Below are positions 27,125-35,297 of a DNA stretch of 64,000 nt, piece after piece. Under the pieces are notes generated by a model, which did not search any database, had not been told where the DNA came from, and worked only from the letters and a program-made list of their open reading frames with translations. Numbering within the stretch: position 1 is the stretch's first letter; every line of letters starts with the position of its first letter. Source of the DNA: Chloroflexota bacterium (lineage in GTDB: Bacteria > Chloroflexota > Anaerolineae > SpSt-313); NCBI GenBank assembly GCA_029553955.1, contig JAKPJZ010000201.1, positions 62,001 through 126,000 of the forward strand, in the 5' to 3' direction. The translations under genes and the position numbers were made by a program.

Positions 27125-27169
27125 GCTTGTGAAAAGCAGCACGATGTGAACGCAAAGGAATAAGCGGGT

Positions 27170-27808
27170 ATGGATAAGCCGGGCATTCCCAGGCCAACGT
27201 TGAGCCGGCTGCCGCTCTACCACCGCTTCCTGGCGCAGGTGAGCGAGGCGGGCCGGGCCGTGGTCTCGTCGGAGGAGATGGGGCGCGCGCTGAACCTGCC
27301 GGCGGCACAGATTCGCAAGGACCTCTCGTGCCTGGCCGAGTTTGGCCGGCCGGGCGTGGGCTACGAGGTGGCCGAGTTGTTGGCCAACCTGGAAGAGTTC
27401 CTGGGGCTGGCCAACGACAAGGAGGCCGTGGTGGTGGGTGCGGGGCGGCTGGGGCAGGCGCTGGCGAGCTACCCCGGCTTTGCCGCCTATGGCCTGCGCA
27501 TCGTCGCGCTCTTTGATGTGGACCCTGCCAAGATCGGCCTCGAGGTGGCGGAGCGGCCGGTCTTTGCGCTGGAAAAGCTGGCCGACCTGGTGGGGCGGCT
27601 GCACATCCAGATGGGCATCATTACCGTGCCGGCCGCGGCGGCGCAGGCCGTGGCCGACGCCATGGTGGCCGCCGGCATCACGGTGATCTGGAATTTCGCG
27701 CCCGCCCGTGTGGGCGTGCCTGCGGGCATCTGGCTGGAGAGCGAAGACCTGGCGTCACACCTGGCGACGCTGTCGTATCACATCAAGCGCAGGGGCAGGA
27801 AGGCGTAG
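27170..27808 (+). CDS. rex: Redox-sensing transcriptional repressor Rex
   Basis: Rex senses the NADH/NAD+ ratio and represses fermentation and hydrogen genes when NADH is low. The 212-residue length is typical. The N-terminal winged helix shows TLSRLPLYHRFLAQ, SSEEMGRALNLPAAQIRKDL and SCLAEFGRPGVGYEV. The Rossmann domain has AVVVGAGRLGQALASYPGF and IVALFDVDPAKIG, and near the end is the Rex segment IWNFAPARVGVPAGI. AAGGAA precedes the ATG by about 10 bases. The hydrogenase-like sensor gene downstream is a plausible target by function. Confidence 0.96.
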   Translation: MDKPGIPRPTLSRLPLYHRFLAQVSEAGRAVVSSEEMGRALNLPAAQIRKDLSCLAEFGRPGVGYEVAELLANLEEFLGLANDKEAVVVGAGRLGQALASYPGFAAYGLRIVALFDVDPAKIGLEVAERPVFALEKLADLVGRLHIQMGIITVPAAAAQAVADAMVAAGITVIWNFAPARVGVPAGIWLESEDLASHLATLSYHIKRRGRKA

Positions 27809-28328
27809 ACAGGGAATCTGAACTACAGTGCGACGTCATTCGCCTGCCGCAGGGTTGCGGCAACCTTGAGGTACTCATCTGAAAACGCTCCCAGGCGCCG
27901 TAGCCTAGCCCCTTGTGGGCGTTTTCATCGCTTGTGGTGCCCTTGGGGGCATGTCGTCTGCTCTGAAAATGCTCCCAGGCGCCGTAGCCTAGCCCCTTGT
28001 GGGCGTTTTCATCGCTTGCGGTGCCCTTGGGGGCATGATGTCTGTTCAGAAACTTGGTCCTGTCATTGCGAGCGTAGCGAAGCAATCCCTTGGTTGCGAG
28101 CGCAGCGATGCAACTCCACGTCGGGCATCGGAGTTGCCTCGCTTCGCTCGCAACCTGGGGATTGCTTCGTCGGCGGCTGCGGTCGCCTCCTCGCAATGAC
28201 AGGCCAAGGTTCTGTGCTGGTCACAGGGTTCGGAGACCCTGGGATACTCGCAATGACGGGCTGAGCAGTTGCCTGCGAAAAACGGACTCCGCGTCCTCTG
28301 CGGTTAGCCCATGAGAGGGTGGTAGCTG
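27809..28328. repeat. Intergenic region with a tandem family I repeat and a GCGAAGCAATC-type repeat
   Basis: 27882-28043 holds two copies of an approximately 80-base unit containing CCGTAGCCTAGCCCCTTGTG and CTTGGGGGCATG. 28060-28260 holds inverted and direct motifs of the type CATTGCGAGCGTAGCGAAGC, CTCGCTTCGCTCGCAA and CTCGCAATGAC. No gene was seen, and the predicted leader of the hydrogenase-like gene begins in or after this block. Confidence 0.7.
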
Positions 28329-30122
28329 ATGAAGGGCGGCGTGATTCAGACGAACGTGGCCCGGTGTCGCGACTGCTACTCGTGTGTGCGCGCCTGCTCG
28401 GTGAAGGCGGTGCGCGTGCAGGATGCGCAGGCGCAGGTGGTGCAGGAGCTGTGCATCGTCTGCGGCACCTGCGTGCGGGCCTGCCCACAGGGGGCCAAGC
28501 AGGTGCGCAACGACCGGTCGATCGTGGAGCAAGCGCTGGCCGAGGGACGGCCGGTGGTCGCGAGCGTGGCGCCGTCGGCGCCGGCCTTCTTTGATCTGAC
28601 CTCGTTCGTGGCTATGGAGGAGGCGCTGCAGGCGCTGGGCTTTGCCGCCGCCGGCGAGACGGCGTTCGGCGCCGAGATGGTGGGCCGCGCCCATGGCCGC
28701 CTGCTGGCCGAGGGCGGCGGCGTGCGCCCGGTCATCGCCGCCGCCTGCCCGGTGGTGGTGAACCTGGTCGAGATGTACTATCCCGACCTGATCGTGCACC
28801 TGGCGCCCATCGTCTCGCCGATGATCGCCCATGGCCGCTGGCTCAGGCGGCACTACGGCCCCACGGCCTGCATTGTGTTCATCGGCCCATGCCTGGGCAA
28901 GAAGGGCGAGGTGCGCGCCGAGGGGCTGCAAGGCGCCGTCGACGCGGCGCTGACCTTTAGCGAGCTGGCCAAGTGGCTCAAGGAGCGCGGCATCGCCATC
29001 GCCCGCCCGGCTGAGCCGCCCGAGCCGGAGCCGGTGCGCCCGGCGGCCAGGCTCTTCCCGGTCGAAGGGGGCCTGGTGGGCACGGCGCGGCTGAGCACCG
29101 ATATGCTGGCCGAGCACGTGATCACCGCCTCGGGGCTCGAGGCCTGCCGCGATGTGTTGGAGGGCATCCGCTCGGGTGCGCTCGAGGCTGGCCTGGCCGA
29201 GCTGATGGCCTGCGAGGGCGGCTGCATCAACGGCCCGGTGATGGCGGGGCTGCACCCCGTCTCGCTCTACCGGCAACGCCTGCTGGCCTATGCTGGCCGG
29301 CAGCAGCCGCAACCCTTGCCCACAGGCGCAGCCCGTAGGGGCGGTTCGGGAACCGCCCCCGGTTCGCGAACCGCCCTCCCCTCCGGCGACGAGGATTGGC
29401 CCGACCTCAGCCGCAGCTTCCACGACCGCAGCCAGCCGGTGCCCGAGTTCAGCGAGGAAGAGATCAGGGCAGCGCTGGCCATGGTGGAAAAATACTCGCC
29501 GCAGGACGAGCTGAACTGCGGCGCCTGCGGCTATCCGAGCTGCCGCGCCAAAGCCATCGCCGCGCTGCGCGGCATGGCCGAGTTGACGATGTGCATCCCC
29601 TACATGCGCAGCCGCGCCGAATCGCTCACCAACGTGGTCATGGACGCGGTGCCCAACGCCGTGCTCGTGGTCGACGAGCAACTGCACGTGCACGAAGCCT
29701 CGGCCTCGGCGCAGCGCATGTTCGGGCGCCACCGCGGCGAGATGCTGGGGCGACACCTGCGCGAGTTTGTGCCCGTGCTCACCCTCTTCCTGCAGGCGCA
29801 GGGGTCGGGCGAGATGGCCTGGAGCGAGAAGGTGCGCCTACGCGAGGGCCTGATTGTCGATATGGCCGTGGTGCCGGTGCCGGGCAAGGGCCTGCTGGTC
29901 TCGGTGCTGCGCGACATTACCGAGCACGAAGCGGCGCGGGCGGCGCTGGCCCACCTGCGCGCCGAGACGCTCGACCGCACCCAGGCGGTCATCAAAAAGC
30001 AGATGCGCGTGGCCCACGAGATTGCAGGGCTCTTGGGCGAGACGACTGCCGAGACCAAGGTGCTGCTGACCGAGCTGCGGCGCCTGCTGGAGAAGGATGA
30101 GGACGGTGAAGCAGCTCGTTGA
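28329..30122 (+). CDS. HydS-like sensory [FeFe]-hydrogenase with a PAS domain
   Basis: The 597-residue protein has two N-terminal 4Fe-4S motifs (CRDCYSCVRAC and CIVCGTCVRAC), then an [FeFe]-hydrogenase H-cluster region. The cluster motifs are L1 AAACPVVVNL, L2 GPCLGKKGE and L3 ELMACEGGCINGP. All four cubane cysteines are present, but the proton-relay cysteine before L1's CP is Ala, as known for HydS-type sensory hydrogenases. A CGACGYPSC iron-sulfur motif follows near residue 396, a PAS domain spans about 430-540, and there is a helical tail. The palindromic stretch 29334-29385 is an apparent in-frame insertion. GAGAGGGTGG lies before the ATG. The gene overlaps the phosphatase gene by 26 bases. 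It probably signals redox or H2 state rather than producing bulk hydrogen. Confidence 0.85.
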   Translation: MKGGVIQTNVARCRDCYSCVRACSVKAVRVQDAQAQVVQELCIVCGTCVRACPQGAKQVRNDRSIVEQALAEGRPVVASVAPSAPAFFDLTSFVAMEEALQALGFAAAGETAFGAEMVGRAHGRLLAEGGGVRPVIAAACPVVVNLVEMYYPDLIVHLAPIVSPMIAHGRWLRRHYGPTACIVFIGPCLGKKGEVRAEGLQGAVDAALTFSELAKWLKERGIAIARPAEPPEPEPVRPAARLFPVEGGLVGTARLSTDMLAEHVITASGLEACRDVLEGIRSGALEAGLAELMACEGGCINGPVMAGLHPVSLYRQRLLAYAGRQQPQPLPTGAARRGGSGTAPGSRTALPSGDEDWPDLSRSFHDRSQPVPEFSEEEIRAALAMVEKYSPQDELNCGACGYPSCRAKAIAALRGMAELTMCIPYMRSRAESLTNVVMDAVPNAVLVVDEQLHVHEASASAQRMFGRHRGEMLGRHLREFVPVLTLFLQAQGSGEMAWSEKVRLREGLIVDMAVVPVPGKGLLVSVLRDITEHEAARAALAHLRAETLDRTQAVIKKQMRVAHEIAGLLGETTAETKVLLTELRRLLEKDEDGEAAR

Positions 30123-31275
30123 GGTGGCCTACCGTTGCCTGGCCAAGCACGGCGAGGAACTGTGCGGCGACGCCGTGCGCCTCAAAGCCACACCGTCGTC
30201 GCTGATCGTGGGTCTCTCCGATGGGCTCGGCAGCGGCGTCAAGGCGCACATCCTGGCCACGCTGACGGTGACCATCGGCGTAGACATGCTCGAAAAGGGC
30301 GAGACGATCGACGAGGTCATCGAGACCCTCACCGACACCTTGCCCGAGTGCCAGGTGCGCCGGCTGGCGTACGCGACCTTTTCGGTGCTGATGGTGGAGC
30401 AGGGCCGGCGCGCCTACCTGGTGGAATACGACAACCCACCGCTCGTGCTGATCCGTGACAGGCAGCTCGTCAGCCTGCCGATGGTCGAGCGTGAGGTGGG
30501 CGGGCGCAGCATCCGCGAATGCAAGTTCGAGCTGCAAGAGGGCGACTATATGACCCTGGTGTCGGATGGCTACGTCCACGCCGGGGTGGGCGGGCTGTAC
30601 AAGCTGGGCTGGGGCTGGAAGAACCTGGCCGTCTCGCTCACGCGCTGGGCGGCCACCGGCGGCGATGCCTACCAGTTGACCGGCGCCCTGGCGCGCACTT
30701 GCCTCAAGCTGTACGATGGCCGGCCGGGCGACGATGCTACCGCCGTGGGCATGAAGGTGCGCCGCCCCGTGCTGGCCACCATCCTTACCGGCCCACCCTC
30801 GCGGCCCGAGCTCGACCGCCAGACTGTGGAGCGCTTTATGGCTGCCGAGGGGCTCAAGGTCATCTGTGGCGGCACGACCGCGCAGGTGGCGGCGCGTGAG
30901 ACGGGGCATACCCTGCGCGTGTTGCTCGAGCGCCGCCTGCCCGGAGTTGCCGCCCGCAAGGAAAAGATCCCTCCGATGGCGCGTCTGGAGGGGGTGGACC
31001 TGGTCACCGAAGGCATCATCACCCTGAGCAAGGCCTCCGAACGCCTGCAGGTCGCCGAGACCATCCACGACCTGCCCCCCGCGCACGACGGCGCGACCGA
31101 GCTGGCGCGGGTACTGCTGCGGGCCGACGTCCTGCACTTTATGGTCGGTGAGGCCATCAATCCCTACCAGCTCGCCGATGTGGTGCGCGGCAAGCCCATG
31201 CGCCAGGTGTACGTGGAGGAGCTCATCGCGCAGCTCGAAACGCGGGGCAAGGTGGTCACGGTCGAGCGCCTGTAG
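30097..31275 (+). CDS. SpoIIE-type PP2C serine phosphatase with a C-terminal extension
   Basis: The 392-residue product carries a PP2C/SpoIIE domain in residues 1-225. Metal-site segments are GLSDGLGSGVKAH, the Asp/Gly pair in YMTLVSDGYVHAG and PGDDATAVGMKV. Residues 230-392 form a second region (FMAAEGLKVICGGTTAQVAA) not assigned to a known domain. The ATG lies within the end of the hydrogenase-like gene after GAGAAGG, so the two are coupled. By context it should dephosphorylate a serine/threonine protein (anti-sigma-antagonist type) in response to the hydrogenase/PAS sensor; this is inference. Confidence 0.85.
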   Translation: MRTVKQLVEVAYRCLAKHGEELCGDAVRLKATPSSLIVGLSDGLGSGVKAHILATLTVTIGVDMLEKGETIDEVIETLTDTLPECQVRRLAYATFSVLMVEQGRRAYLVEYDNPPLVLIRDRQLVSLPMVEREVGGRSIRECKFELQEGDYMTLVSDGYVHAGVGGLYKLGWGWKNLAVSLTRWAATGGDAYQLTGALARTCLKLYDGRPGDDATAVGMKVRRPVLATILTGPPSRPELDRQTVERFMAAEGLKVICGGTTAQVAARETGHTLRVLLERRLPGVAARKEKIPPMARLEGVDLVTEGIITLSKASERLQVAETIHDLPPAHDGATELARVLLRADVLHFMVGEAINPYQLADVVRGKPMRQVYVEELIAQLETRGKVVTVERL

Positions 31276-31578
31276 GACGGGCTTTCCAGCCCGTCAACGT
31301 GTCGCAACGGCGAGGGCTGGACAGGCTGGAAAGCCTGTCCCACAGGCCCGCAGGGCGGGCTTTCCAGCCCGTCAACGTGTCGCAACGGCGAGGGCTGGAC
31401 AGGCTGGAAAGCCTATCCCACAGGCCCGTAGGGCGGGCCTTCCAGCCCGTCAACGTGTCGCAACGGCGAGGGCCGGACAGGCTGGAAAGCCTATCCCACA
31501 GGCCCGTAGGGCGGGCTTTCCAGCCCGTCAACGTGTCGCAACGGCGAGGGCTGGACAGGCTGGAAAGCCTGTCCCACT
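31275..31578. repeat. Tandem repeat, four copies of 78 bases
   Basis: The marker AACGTGTCGCAACGGCGAGG recurs at 31296, 31374, 31452 and 31530, an exact 78-base period. Each unit holds the hairpins GGGCTTTCCAGCCC and GGACAGGCTGGAAAGCCTGTCC-like arms. It starts at the stop codon of the phosphatase gene. Units differ by one to three bases and have no variable spacer. Confidence 0.9.
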
Positions 31579-31638
31579 TGCGAACGAGGGCTGGCGTTTC
31601 GTAGTACAGACTTGGCAGTAGAGCTGCGAAAGGAGCGT

Positions 31639-32019
31639 ATGGCCCACGGCACATTCGGCACGGCGATCAACTGTATGGACGGGCGGGTGCAGGAGCCGGT
31701 GACGCGCTGGCTGAAAGAGACCTACGGGCTCGACTATGTGGACATGATCACCGAGCCCGGGCCCGAGAAGGTGCTGGCCGAGGGCGGGCCGCAGACGGCG
31801 GCGTTCCTGGCCAAGGCGCGCATCTCGGTGCAGGCCCACGGCTCGCGGGTGCTCGCCATCGTTGCTCACGATGACTGCGCCGGCAACCCCGTGAGCCCCG
31901 ACGTGCACCAGGCCCAGGTGCGCCAGGCGATGGAGGTGCTGCGCGGCTGGGGGCTGCACGTACAGGTCATCGGCCTGTGGGTCGACGCGCAGTGGCAGGT
32001 GCAGCCGGTCGGCGACTGA
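31639..32019 (+). CDS. Beta-carbonic-anhydrase-like protein (small)
   Basis: The 126-residue product has the zinc motifs of beta-carbonic anhydrases: Cys-x-Asp-x-Arg as INCMDGRVQ at the start and His-x2-Cys as VAHDDCAGNP near residue 80. Between them are WLKETYGLDYVDMITEPGPE and a conserved-looking GGPQTAAF. It is far shorter than the usual 190-220 residues, but short homologs of this form are seen in Chloroflexota and Firmicutes. It may be a real enzyme or only share the zinc fold. AAGGAGCGT precedes the ATG. Confidence 0.75.
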   Translation: MAHGTFGTAINCMDGRVQEPVTRWLKETYGLDYVDMITEPGPEKVLAEGGPQTAAFLAKARISVQAHGSRVLAIVAHDDCAGNPVSPDVHQAQVRQAMEVLRGWGLHVQVIGLWVDAQWQVQPVGD

Positions 32020-34227: not shown

Positions 34228-34890
34228 ATGTCCAGGCTCAGGCGGCAGGCGTGGGCCTGGGTCGTGATTATGGCGGGGCTGTTTCTCTATGCGCTGGCTA
34301 TCGTGCTGATGGTGCGCGCCGACCTGGGCCTGGGGCCGTGGGACATCTTTCATGTGGGCGTGGCGGGCCGCCTGGGCTGGCCGCTGGGCCGGGTCTCTAT
34401 TGTGACCGGCCTGGCCATCATCGTGCTGTCATACGTGGCGGCGCGCATCAAGCCCGGCGCGGGGACGGTGGCCAACATGATCTGCATCGGCACCTTTATC
34501 GACTGGCTCATGCCGCACATGCCGGTATTCCGCGGCTGGGCGGTGCAGGTGGCGGTGTTCGGGTTGGGCGTGCTGCTGGAGGGGCTGGCCACGCGCGTCT
34601 ACATCGGCGCGGGGCTGGGGGCGGGGCCGCGCGATGGGCTGATGCTGGGCCTGAGCCGCATCACCGGGCGCAGCATCCGCCTGGTGCGCACCCGCATCGA
34701 GGTCACGGTGCTGGCGGCGGGCGCGTTGCTCGGCGGCAAGCTGGGCCTGGGCACGGTGATCTTTGCCCTGGGGATCGGGCCGGCGGTGCAGTTCTTCTTT
34801 AGGCTGTTCGGTGAGCCGGGGAAGACGCCGTATGGTCCCTCACCCCCGGCCCCTCTCCCACGTGCGCGGGGAGAGGGGAGGCATTTTTGA
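34228..34890 (+). CDS. YczE/YyaS/YitT-type membrane protein
   Basis: The product of about 220 residues has five hydrophobic helices and the motifs ALAIVLMVRADLGLGPWDIF, GTFIDWLMPHMP and GAGLGAGPRDGLMLGLSRITG, which match COG2364. The family's function is unknown. The start is uncertain: ATG 34228 is chosen because the first helix follows directly. The last 20 residues (from YGPSPPAPLPRARGEG) are encoded by a family G repeat, so the original stop has probably been lost. Confidence 0.78.
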   Translation: MSRLRRQAWAWVVIMAGLFLYALAIVLMVRADLGLGPWDIFHVGVAGRLGWPLGRVSIVTGLAIIVLSYVAARIKPGAGTVANMICIGTFIDWLMPHMPVFRGWAVQVAVFGLGVLLEGLATRVYIGAGLGAGPRDGLMLGLSRITGRSIRLVRTRIEVTVLAAGALLGGKLGLGTVIFALGIGPAVQFFFRLFGEPGKTPYGPSPPAPLPRARGEGRHF

Positions 34891-35162
34891 GGCGAGTCGG
34901 CGACAGTCGTTGTGGTTTGCCAGCCCCATGGTAGGCACATCCCCCCTCTCCCCGCGCACGTGGGAGAAGGGAAGCGGTCACGGTCGGCCTGCCGGCGCTC
35001 CCCCCTCTCCCTGCGCACGTGGGAGAGGGGAAGCGGTCACGGTCGGCCTGCCGGCGCTTCCCCCTCTCCCCGCGCACGTGGGAGAGGGGAAGCGGTCACG
35101 GTCGGCCTGCCGGCGCTTCCCCCTCTCCCCGCGCACGTGGGAGAGGGGCCGGGGGTGAGGGA
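34836..35162. repeat. Family G repeat expanded into a tandem array (about four copies of 59 bases)
   Basis: The outer borders are inverted: TCCCTCACCCCCGGCCCCTC at 34836 and its complement ending at 35162. Inside, CGCGCACGTGGGAGA recurs at 34953, 35012, 35071 and 35130, a 59-base period, with the linker AAGCGGTCACGGTCGGCCTG between copies. Linkers are nearly identical, so it is not a CRISPR array. Confidence 0.88.
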
Positions 35163-35226
35163 TCCTGCACCGGCGGCGAGGAGGACGAGCGGCTCAAGCC
35201 GCTACTACGAAGGGGGGCTGCTGGGC

Positions 35227-35255
35227 TTGCCGGGGGGTCGGGCGGCGGCTATACT
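35227..35255 (+). promoter_or_regulatory. pyk promoter
   Basis: TTGCCG (35227-35232) and TATACT (35250-35255) are 17 bases apart. The predicted start near 35262 gives a 36-base leader before the pyk ATG. Confidence 0.7.
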
Positions 35256-35297
35256 TGTGTGGCATTTGTGTCGTGCCGTGTAGAGTGGGGGGCGAGC

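Follow-up and report, generated by a model that had tools for sequence, protein, structure and literature searches.

The DNA analysed here (the window) is a 64,000-nucleotide (nt) stretch from a Chloroflexota bacterium of the class Anaerolineae (assembly GCA_029553955.1, contig JAKPJZ010000201.1, positions 62,001 to 126,000 of the forward strand; contig C37 in our numbering). The host genome is a metagenome-assembled genome (MAG) of 5.37 Mb, 91.8% complete and 8.15% contaminated. The window contains a gene for a "sensory" [FeFe]-hydrogenase homologue (HydS) followed by a gene for a SpoIIE/PP2C phosphatase, for which an earlier note, made from the sequence alone, had proposed a one-operon pathway from H2 or redox sensing to serine dephosphorylation. 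The features of the locus were as follows.

27127–27144, + strand: weak Rex-like operator with 2 mismatches, 5′ of rex (11 matches in the window at ≤3 mismatches, 6.5 expected)
27170–27808, + strand: rex, gene of the NAD(H)-responsive redox repressor Rex (NCBIfam Rex models, 249.5 bits, cut-off 130)
27878–28261, no strand assigned: repeats in the rex–hydS gap (an 84-nt tandem pair and a palindromic element)
28329–30122, + strand: hydS (hfsB-like), encoding a 597-residue group C phosphatase-linked [FeFe]-hydrogenase homologue with C-terminal FeS and PAS domains and a 66-residue helix
30097–31275, + strand: hfsC-like SpoIIE/PP2C phosphatase gene (392 residues), with an alpha/beta C-terminal domain at residues ~226–392

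The two open reading frames (ORFs) shared 26 nt, the phosphatase start lying 26 nt before the end of hydS, and rex lay 520 nt upstream of hydS; both the overlap and the upstream Rex had been read correctly in the earlier note. Twelve further genomes of the class had homologues 56–66% identical to the window HydS, and hydS was therefore no chance ORF. In a class sample of 298 genomes this type of HydS occurred in 13, the window included, and the phosphatase adjoined it in 12 of the 13, the single exception being a contig that ended inside hydS. When genomes were scanned with an alignment of Chloroflexota sequences, no fewer than 580 relatives were found, and the locus counts below refer to the best 80 of these. 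The phosphatase gene was 3′ of hydS in 71/80, mostly overlapping it or at most 40 nt away. Thus hydS and the phosphatase gene probably form one overlapping, translationally coupled signalling unit of the HfsB–HfsC (HydDB group C3) kind.

Further genes recurred around the pair. An ORF for a thioredoxin-like [2Fe-2S] protein (hfsA-like; its family was taken from locus L054, just below the Pfam cut-off) was 5′ of hydS in 47/80 loci, HydA was within the locus in 28/80, and Rex in 15/80, seven times at ≤0.7 kb upstream. On a Chloroflexi contig (L088) the order was rex-hfsA-hydS-phosphatase-hydC-hydB. At another locus (L062:16659–18662) a thioredoxin-like [2Fe-2S] domain of this hfsA-like family was fused to the C-terminal end of a HydA.

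Pfam searches of HydS detected Fer4 (residues 36–56), Fe_hyd_lg_C (E 1.9e-48), FeS (PF04060, 395–424) and PAS (437–506), so that the Fe-S and PAS domains described in the earlier note for the C-terminal end were recovered. The same was true of the four cubane cysteines (C140, C188, C295 and C299), which did not vary in 39/39 aligned sequences (nor did K191 and E194), and of the alanine at the proton-relay position (A139). This position was Ala in 20, Cys in 11 and Ser in 8 of the 39 sequences; Ala here is typical, since sensory enzymes were reported to have Ala in ~43%, Cys in 17% and Ser in ~10% (PMC10055695). The window protein had Gly at the equivalent of M353 (position in the hydrogenase CpI). 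Among the Chloroflexota sequences the cysteines of two N-terminal [4Fe-4S] motifs (Cys 13, 16, 19, 23 and 42, 45, 48, 52) varied little or not at all, and the invariant cysteines of C397-x2-C400-x4-C405-x16-C422 matched the Cx2Cx4Cx16C C-terminal cluster motif described for groups C and D (PMC8163306). The presence of PAS placed HydS in group C (M2f) and not in D (PMC8163306).

An AlphaFold2 model of HydS (predicted local distance difference test score, pLDDT, 87.1) ended in a helix of strongly conserved sequence (531–596), and its fold matched [FeFe]-hydrogenases of Desulfovibrio, T. kivui HydABC and CpI (best E 2.5e-21). In a phylogenetic tree, which the earlier note had suggested as a check, the protein did not appear to cluster outside the sensory groups, and all 16 Chloroflexota HydS rows (3 of them duplicates) fell into one clade with support 1.0; the branch of the whole phosphatase-linked group was so weak (0.10) that the tree did not resolve this group. 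Judged by its sequence, the window protein belongs to the "sensory" homologues of [FeFe]-hydrogenases in group C (M2f), known as HydS or HfsB.

The second protein of the pair matched Pfam SpoIIE (E 1.9e-14). D25, D42, D157, D212 and D213, which we take to be metal ligands, were invariant in 69/69 aligned sequences, and by this conservation the phosphatase is probably active. In a model with pLDDT 92.6, residues 3–225 could be superposed on PP2C structures, the Z scores being 24.2 for 3pu9 and 23.5 for SpoIIE of B. subtilis (5ucg). The protein thus resembled the SpoIIE and RsbX phosphatases in its PP2C fold and invariant Asp residues but differed from them in an extra, confidently modelled alpha/beta domain (residues ~226–392), for which no Pfam family scored over the cut-off and a profile search of the PDB gave no significant relative. 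The fold search with the whole model was filled by hits to the PP2C domain, the C-terminal fold not being searched alone. G232, G258 and G351 of this domain were invariant in 69/69 sequences, and P233 and P234 were present in 68/69. A protein resembling this C-terminal part, with no Pfam SpoIIE match, was encoded at L193:701–1807 (G007:C125), with a PHP-domain gene on one side and hydC/hydB-like genes on the other.

Such pairs have precedents. HydDB lists [FeFe] group C3 as "phosphatase-linked (putative)", of undetermined role, and the window pair shares with it a sensory-type protein next to a Ser/Thr phosphatase; lack of maturases, as in the host genome (see below), is not part of the C3 definition as given there (PMC5037454). 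The hfsABCD genes of Thermoanaerobacterium likewise encode a PAS-bearing HydS-type protein and then HfsC, a homologue of serine phosphatases (PMC11837493), and deletion of hfsA or hfsB there raised ethanol yield ~1.8-fold, with higher adhE expression (PMC5707799). In contrast to hfsABCD, the window pair had no hfsA or hfsD next to it, had Rex upstream and lay in a host with no detectable HydE, HydF or HydG (HydEFG). TmHydS of Thermotoga maritima (group C, M2f) has Ala at the relay position, Gly for M353, the C-terminal cluster and PAS, as does the window protein (PMC8163306, PMC10055695); the M497 position, however, was Met in the window protein and Ser in TmHydS, and HydG and HydF over the cut-off were detected in T. 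maritima but not in the window host. Thus the pairing of HydS with a phosphatase is already known, from fermenting bacteria, and the genomic setting, without detectable maturases, is the unusual part.

A sensor–phosphatase pair is, in our judgement, quite likely the best explanation of the locus. This part of the earlier proposal agreed with domains, gene order and published precedent, and the idea of a sensor acting on a phosphatase is sound because the HydDB C3 and Thermoanaerobacterium hfs precedents come close to it. Electrons, whether supplied by H2 or by partners such as reduced ferredoxin/NADH, would alter the state of the H-domain or of its Fe-S chain, and this change would be relayed via the PAS domain and the long helix to the phosphatase, which, by analogy with SpoIIE/RsbX, would dephosphorylate a serine on a partner of STAS/anti-sigma type, the output being an adjusted redox metabolism. 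Identification of the interaction partner of sensory [FeFe]-hydrogenases was called critical (PMC13104023), and in group C3 the evident candidate for the signalling partner is the phosphatase, with its conserved, overlapping gene.

Several observations weigh against a sensor–phosphatase pair. It has no known partner or target. The C-terminal cluster of the group D enzyme TamHydS was reported not to be reduced by H2, contrary to a simple redox relay (PMC13104023). Nine of the 13 class-sample genomes with this HydS had no other [FeFe] homologue; the process regulated there is therefore not an [FeFe] hydrogenase, and the pair cannot serve in the class as a whole to control a further [FeFe] hydrogenase. 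Genome G111 keeps a 63%-identical phosphatase (L192:4892–6064, G111:C272) with no adjoining HydS and no HydS-type match in the genome. Near the window hydS there was no match to the hfsA-like ORF, and no hydrogenase was found next to the pair.

The intact H-domain ligands would also suit a weakly active catalytic hydrogenase whose position beside a phosphatase gene is incidental, and activity of TamHydS and TmHydS is low but real (PMC8163306, PMC10055695). The coupling to the phosphatase in 71/80 loci, the PAS domain, the Gly at M353, the relay Ala and the failure to detect maturases all speak against such an enzyme, which we regard as very unlikely.

The host genome contained two matches to Fe_hyd_lg_C only. 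The second was a group A HydA (473 bits, cut-off 406) on contig C250 in the gene order hydC-hydB-hydA, so that a hydrogenase of the catalytic type, which the earlier note had suggested looking for elsewhere in the genome, was indeed there. The hydEFG genes were not detected. HydG gave no match in the host genome, the best HydF match was 93 bits (cut-off 325.6) and the best HydE match 26.9 bits (cut-off 254.6), in keeping with their absence from the window; the earlier note had named beforehand a genome lacking hydEFG as evidence against its proposal, and its H2-sensing part, with an H-cluster, is one of two possible readings (see below). HydG was found in none of 21 class genomes, 19 of which carried Fe_hyd_lg_C, nor did any of the 21 have HydE over the cut-off, weak HydE matches (best 41.4 bits) occurring in 10. 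Among 400 Chloroflexota genomes sampled across the phylum, HydG over the cut-off was found in none and weaker matches in 27, two of which (G369 and G323) scored like a related radical-SAM enzyme, presumably ThiH-like. Fe_hyd_lg_C was found in 17 of the 400, the genomes screened for it being among those screened for HydG. HydF was detected in 0/33 Chloroflexota genomes with Fe_hyd_lg_C, compared with 5/5 control genomes.

Outside the phylum the pattern differed. HydG over the cut-off was detected in 33 of 48 named HydS genomes, namely 0/6 from Chloroflexi or Anaerolineae and 33/42 from others; two of the remaining nine had partial HydG pieces (G683 and G702), and seven had none over the cut-off (G672, G686, G689, G690, G692, G699 and G705). 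Fisher's exact test of 0/33 against 33/42 gave p 2.5e-13, without correction for shared ancestry.

Two explanations of the missing maturases were rejected. Loss through an incomplete MAG did not fit with HydG in 0/19 class genomes and 0/400 phylum genomes and HydF in 0/33, and the maturase-negative set included single-contig, 99–100% complete genomes (G252, G303, G315 and G340). An insensitive search did not fit with detection of HydG over the cut-off in T. maritima and in 33/42 non-Chloroflexota HydS genomes, and of HydF in 5/5 controls. Contaminating contigs were argued against by similar GC contents (0.685 for the window and 0.694 for the HydA stretch), by the single clade of Chloroflexota HydS and by complete genomes with the same pattern, the contamination of 8.15% leaving hydCBA as a possible contaminant.

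[FeFe] homologues with maturases reported absent or lost are known from R. rubrum and Entamoeba (PMC4967309); here, by contrast, the pattern extends over a sample of a phylum and takes in hydCBA as well as a sensory protein. The open-access literature, to which our search was confined, had nothing on point about maturase-free Chloroflexota [FeFe]-hydrogenases. Undetected maturases, repeats in the rex–hydS gap and a missing hfsA might also mark a decaying remnant of gene transfer, but both genes were open, the cluster ligands and PP2C residues were invariant and HydS persisted in 13 genomes of the class, making decay highly improbable.

Of all the results, the failure to detect HydEFG is the most interesting, and it raises the testable question of how such proteins work. 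Residues contacting the 2Fe site were compared in CpI numbering, taken in part from PMC8163306. In Chloroflexota group A HydA, the equivalents of C299, M353, K358 and M497 were kept in 18/18, and the cubane ligand C300 was Ser in 2/18 (L011 and L179) and in 8/23 other HydA. In Chloroflexota HydS (16 rows, 3 duplicates) the K358 and M497 equivalents were kept in 16/16; in other HydS that of M497 was kept in 6/66. This conservation points to selection on the 2Fe pocket even where maturases are lacking, and recent gene transfer could be another cause of its intactness.

These data bear on two accounts of what HydS senses. It may be a cubane-only redox sensor, its H-domain holding a [4Fe-4S] cluster but no 2Fe site and reporting the redox state of ferredoxin/NADH. 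Maturases were undetected in host, class and phylum searches, 9/13 HydS genomes of the class had no other [FeFe] homologue and the redox regulator Rex recurred nearby (15/80), all as a cubane-only sensor would have it; the preserved 2Fe contacts are left unexplained by it and are therefore the main evidence against it. Taken by itself, we put this account at slightly under an even chance.

Alternatively, HydS may be a true H2 sensor with a complete H-cluster, built in Chloroflexota by highly divergent maturases or by an unrelated route. The 2Fe contacts kept in HydA (18/18) and HydS (16/16) would then be expected, and TmHydS accepts a 2Fe site despite its relay Ala (PMC10055695). The counts over the cut-off (HydG 0/400, HydF 0/33, HydE 0/21) stand against it, however. 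HydEFG are also the only known route to the H-cluster. A true H2 sensor seems conceivable but somewhat less likely than not. As no HydEFG was detectable, we slightly favour, for this host, a redox sensor that holds the cubane only. A broader proposal is that throughout the Chloroflexota, in Anaerolineae as well as in members of other classes with small genomes, both catalytic HydA and the sensor HydS receive a working H-cluster by a novel route without HydE, HydF or HydG, the HydS–phosphatase pair being the sensor arm of this hydrogen metabolism; it seems unlikely.

An H-domain can be seen as a metal site that binds H2 or as a simple Fe-S redox module, and these two ideas, commonly confounded, come apart in the Chloroflexota setting. 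If HydS holds the cubane only, proteins of this type can work without H2 chemistry; if it holds the complete cluster, a second way of making the H-cluster exists.

Possible targets and control of the pair were also surveyed. No match to HATPase_c_2 (anti-sigma type) was found on the window's contig C37, agreeing with the earlier note, which saw no anti-sigma factor gene in the window, and no anti-sigma partner recurred among the genes 3′ of the phosphatase in relatives. The partner search that the note had suggested thus gave nothing linked to the pair, but a STAS-HATPase_c_2-STAS cassette was present on contig C38, unlinked to it (no genome-wide STAS search being made), and is a candidate target of the phosphatase. 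In the hyd operons of two Firmicutes loci, a stand-alone HATPase_c gene of 185 residues (L101:994–1548 and L103:1439–1993) was flanked by hydC and hydB; this gene was absent from the Chloroflexi locus L088, and its product is a possible phosphatase partner. As for Rex binding motifs upstream, also suggested there as a check, the one weak site at 27127 was 5′ of rex itself, and the rex–hydS gap (27809–28328), scanned with a consensus pattern, had no match at ≤3 mismatches.

In three Chloroflexota loci (L057:11722–12282, L059:10872–11477 and L060:5436–5996) a conserved ORF of 186–201 residues, with no Pfam match at E 0.01, was located 3′ of the phosphatase gene. Just 3′ of the window phosphatase (31256–31654), the ORFs of both strands were made up of recurring units, as would be expected of a tandem DNA repeat, and a further stretch of repeat-like ORFs was seen at 34763–35283.

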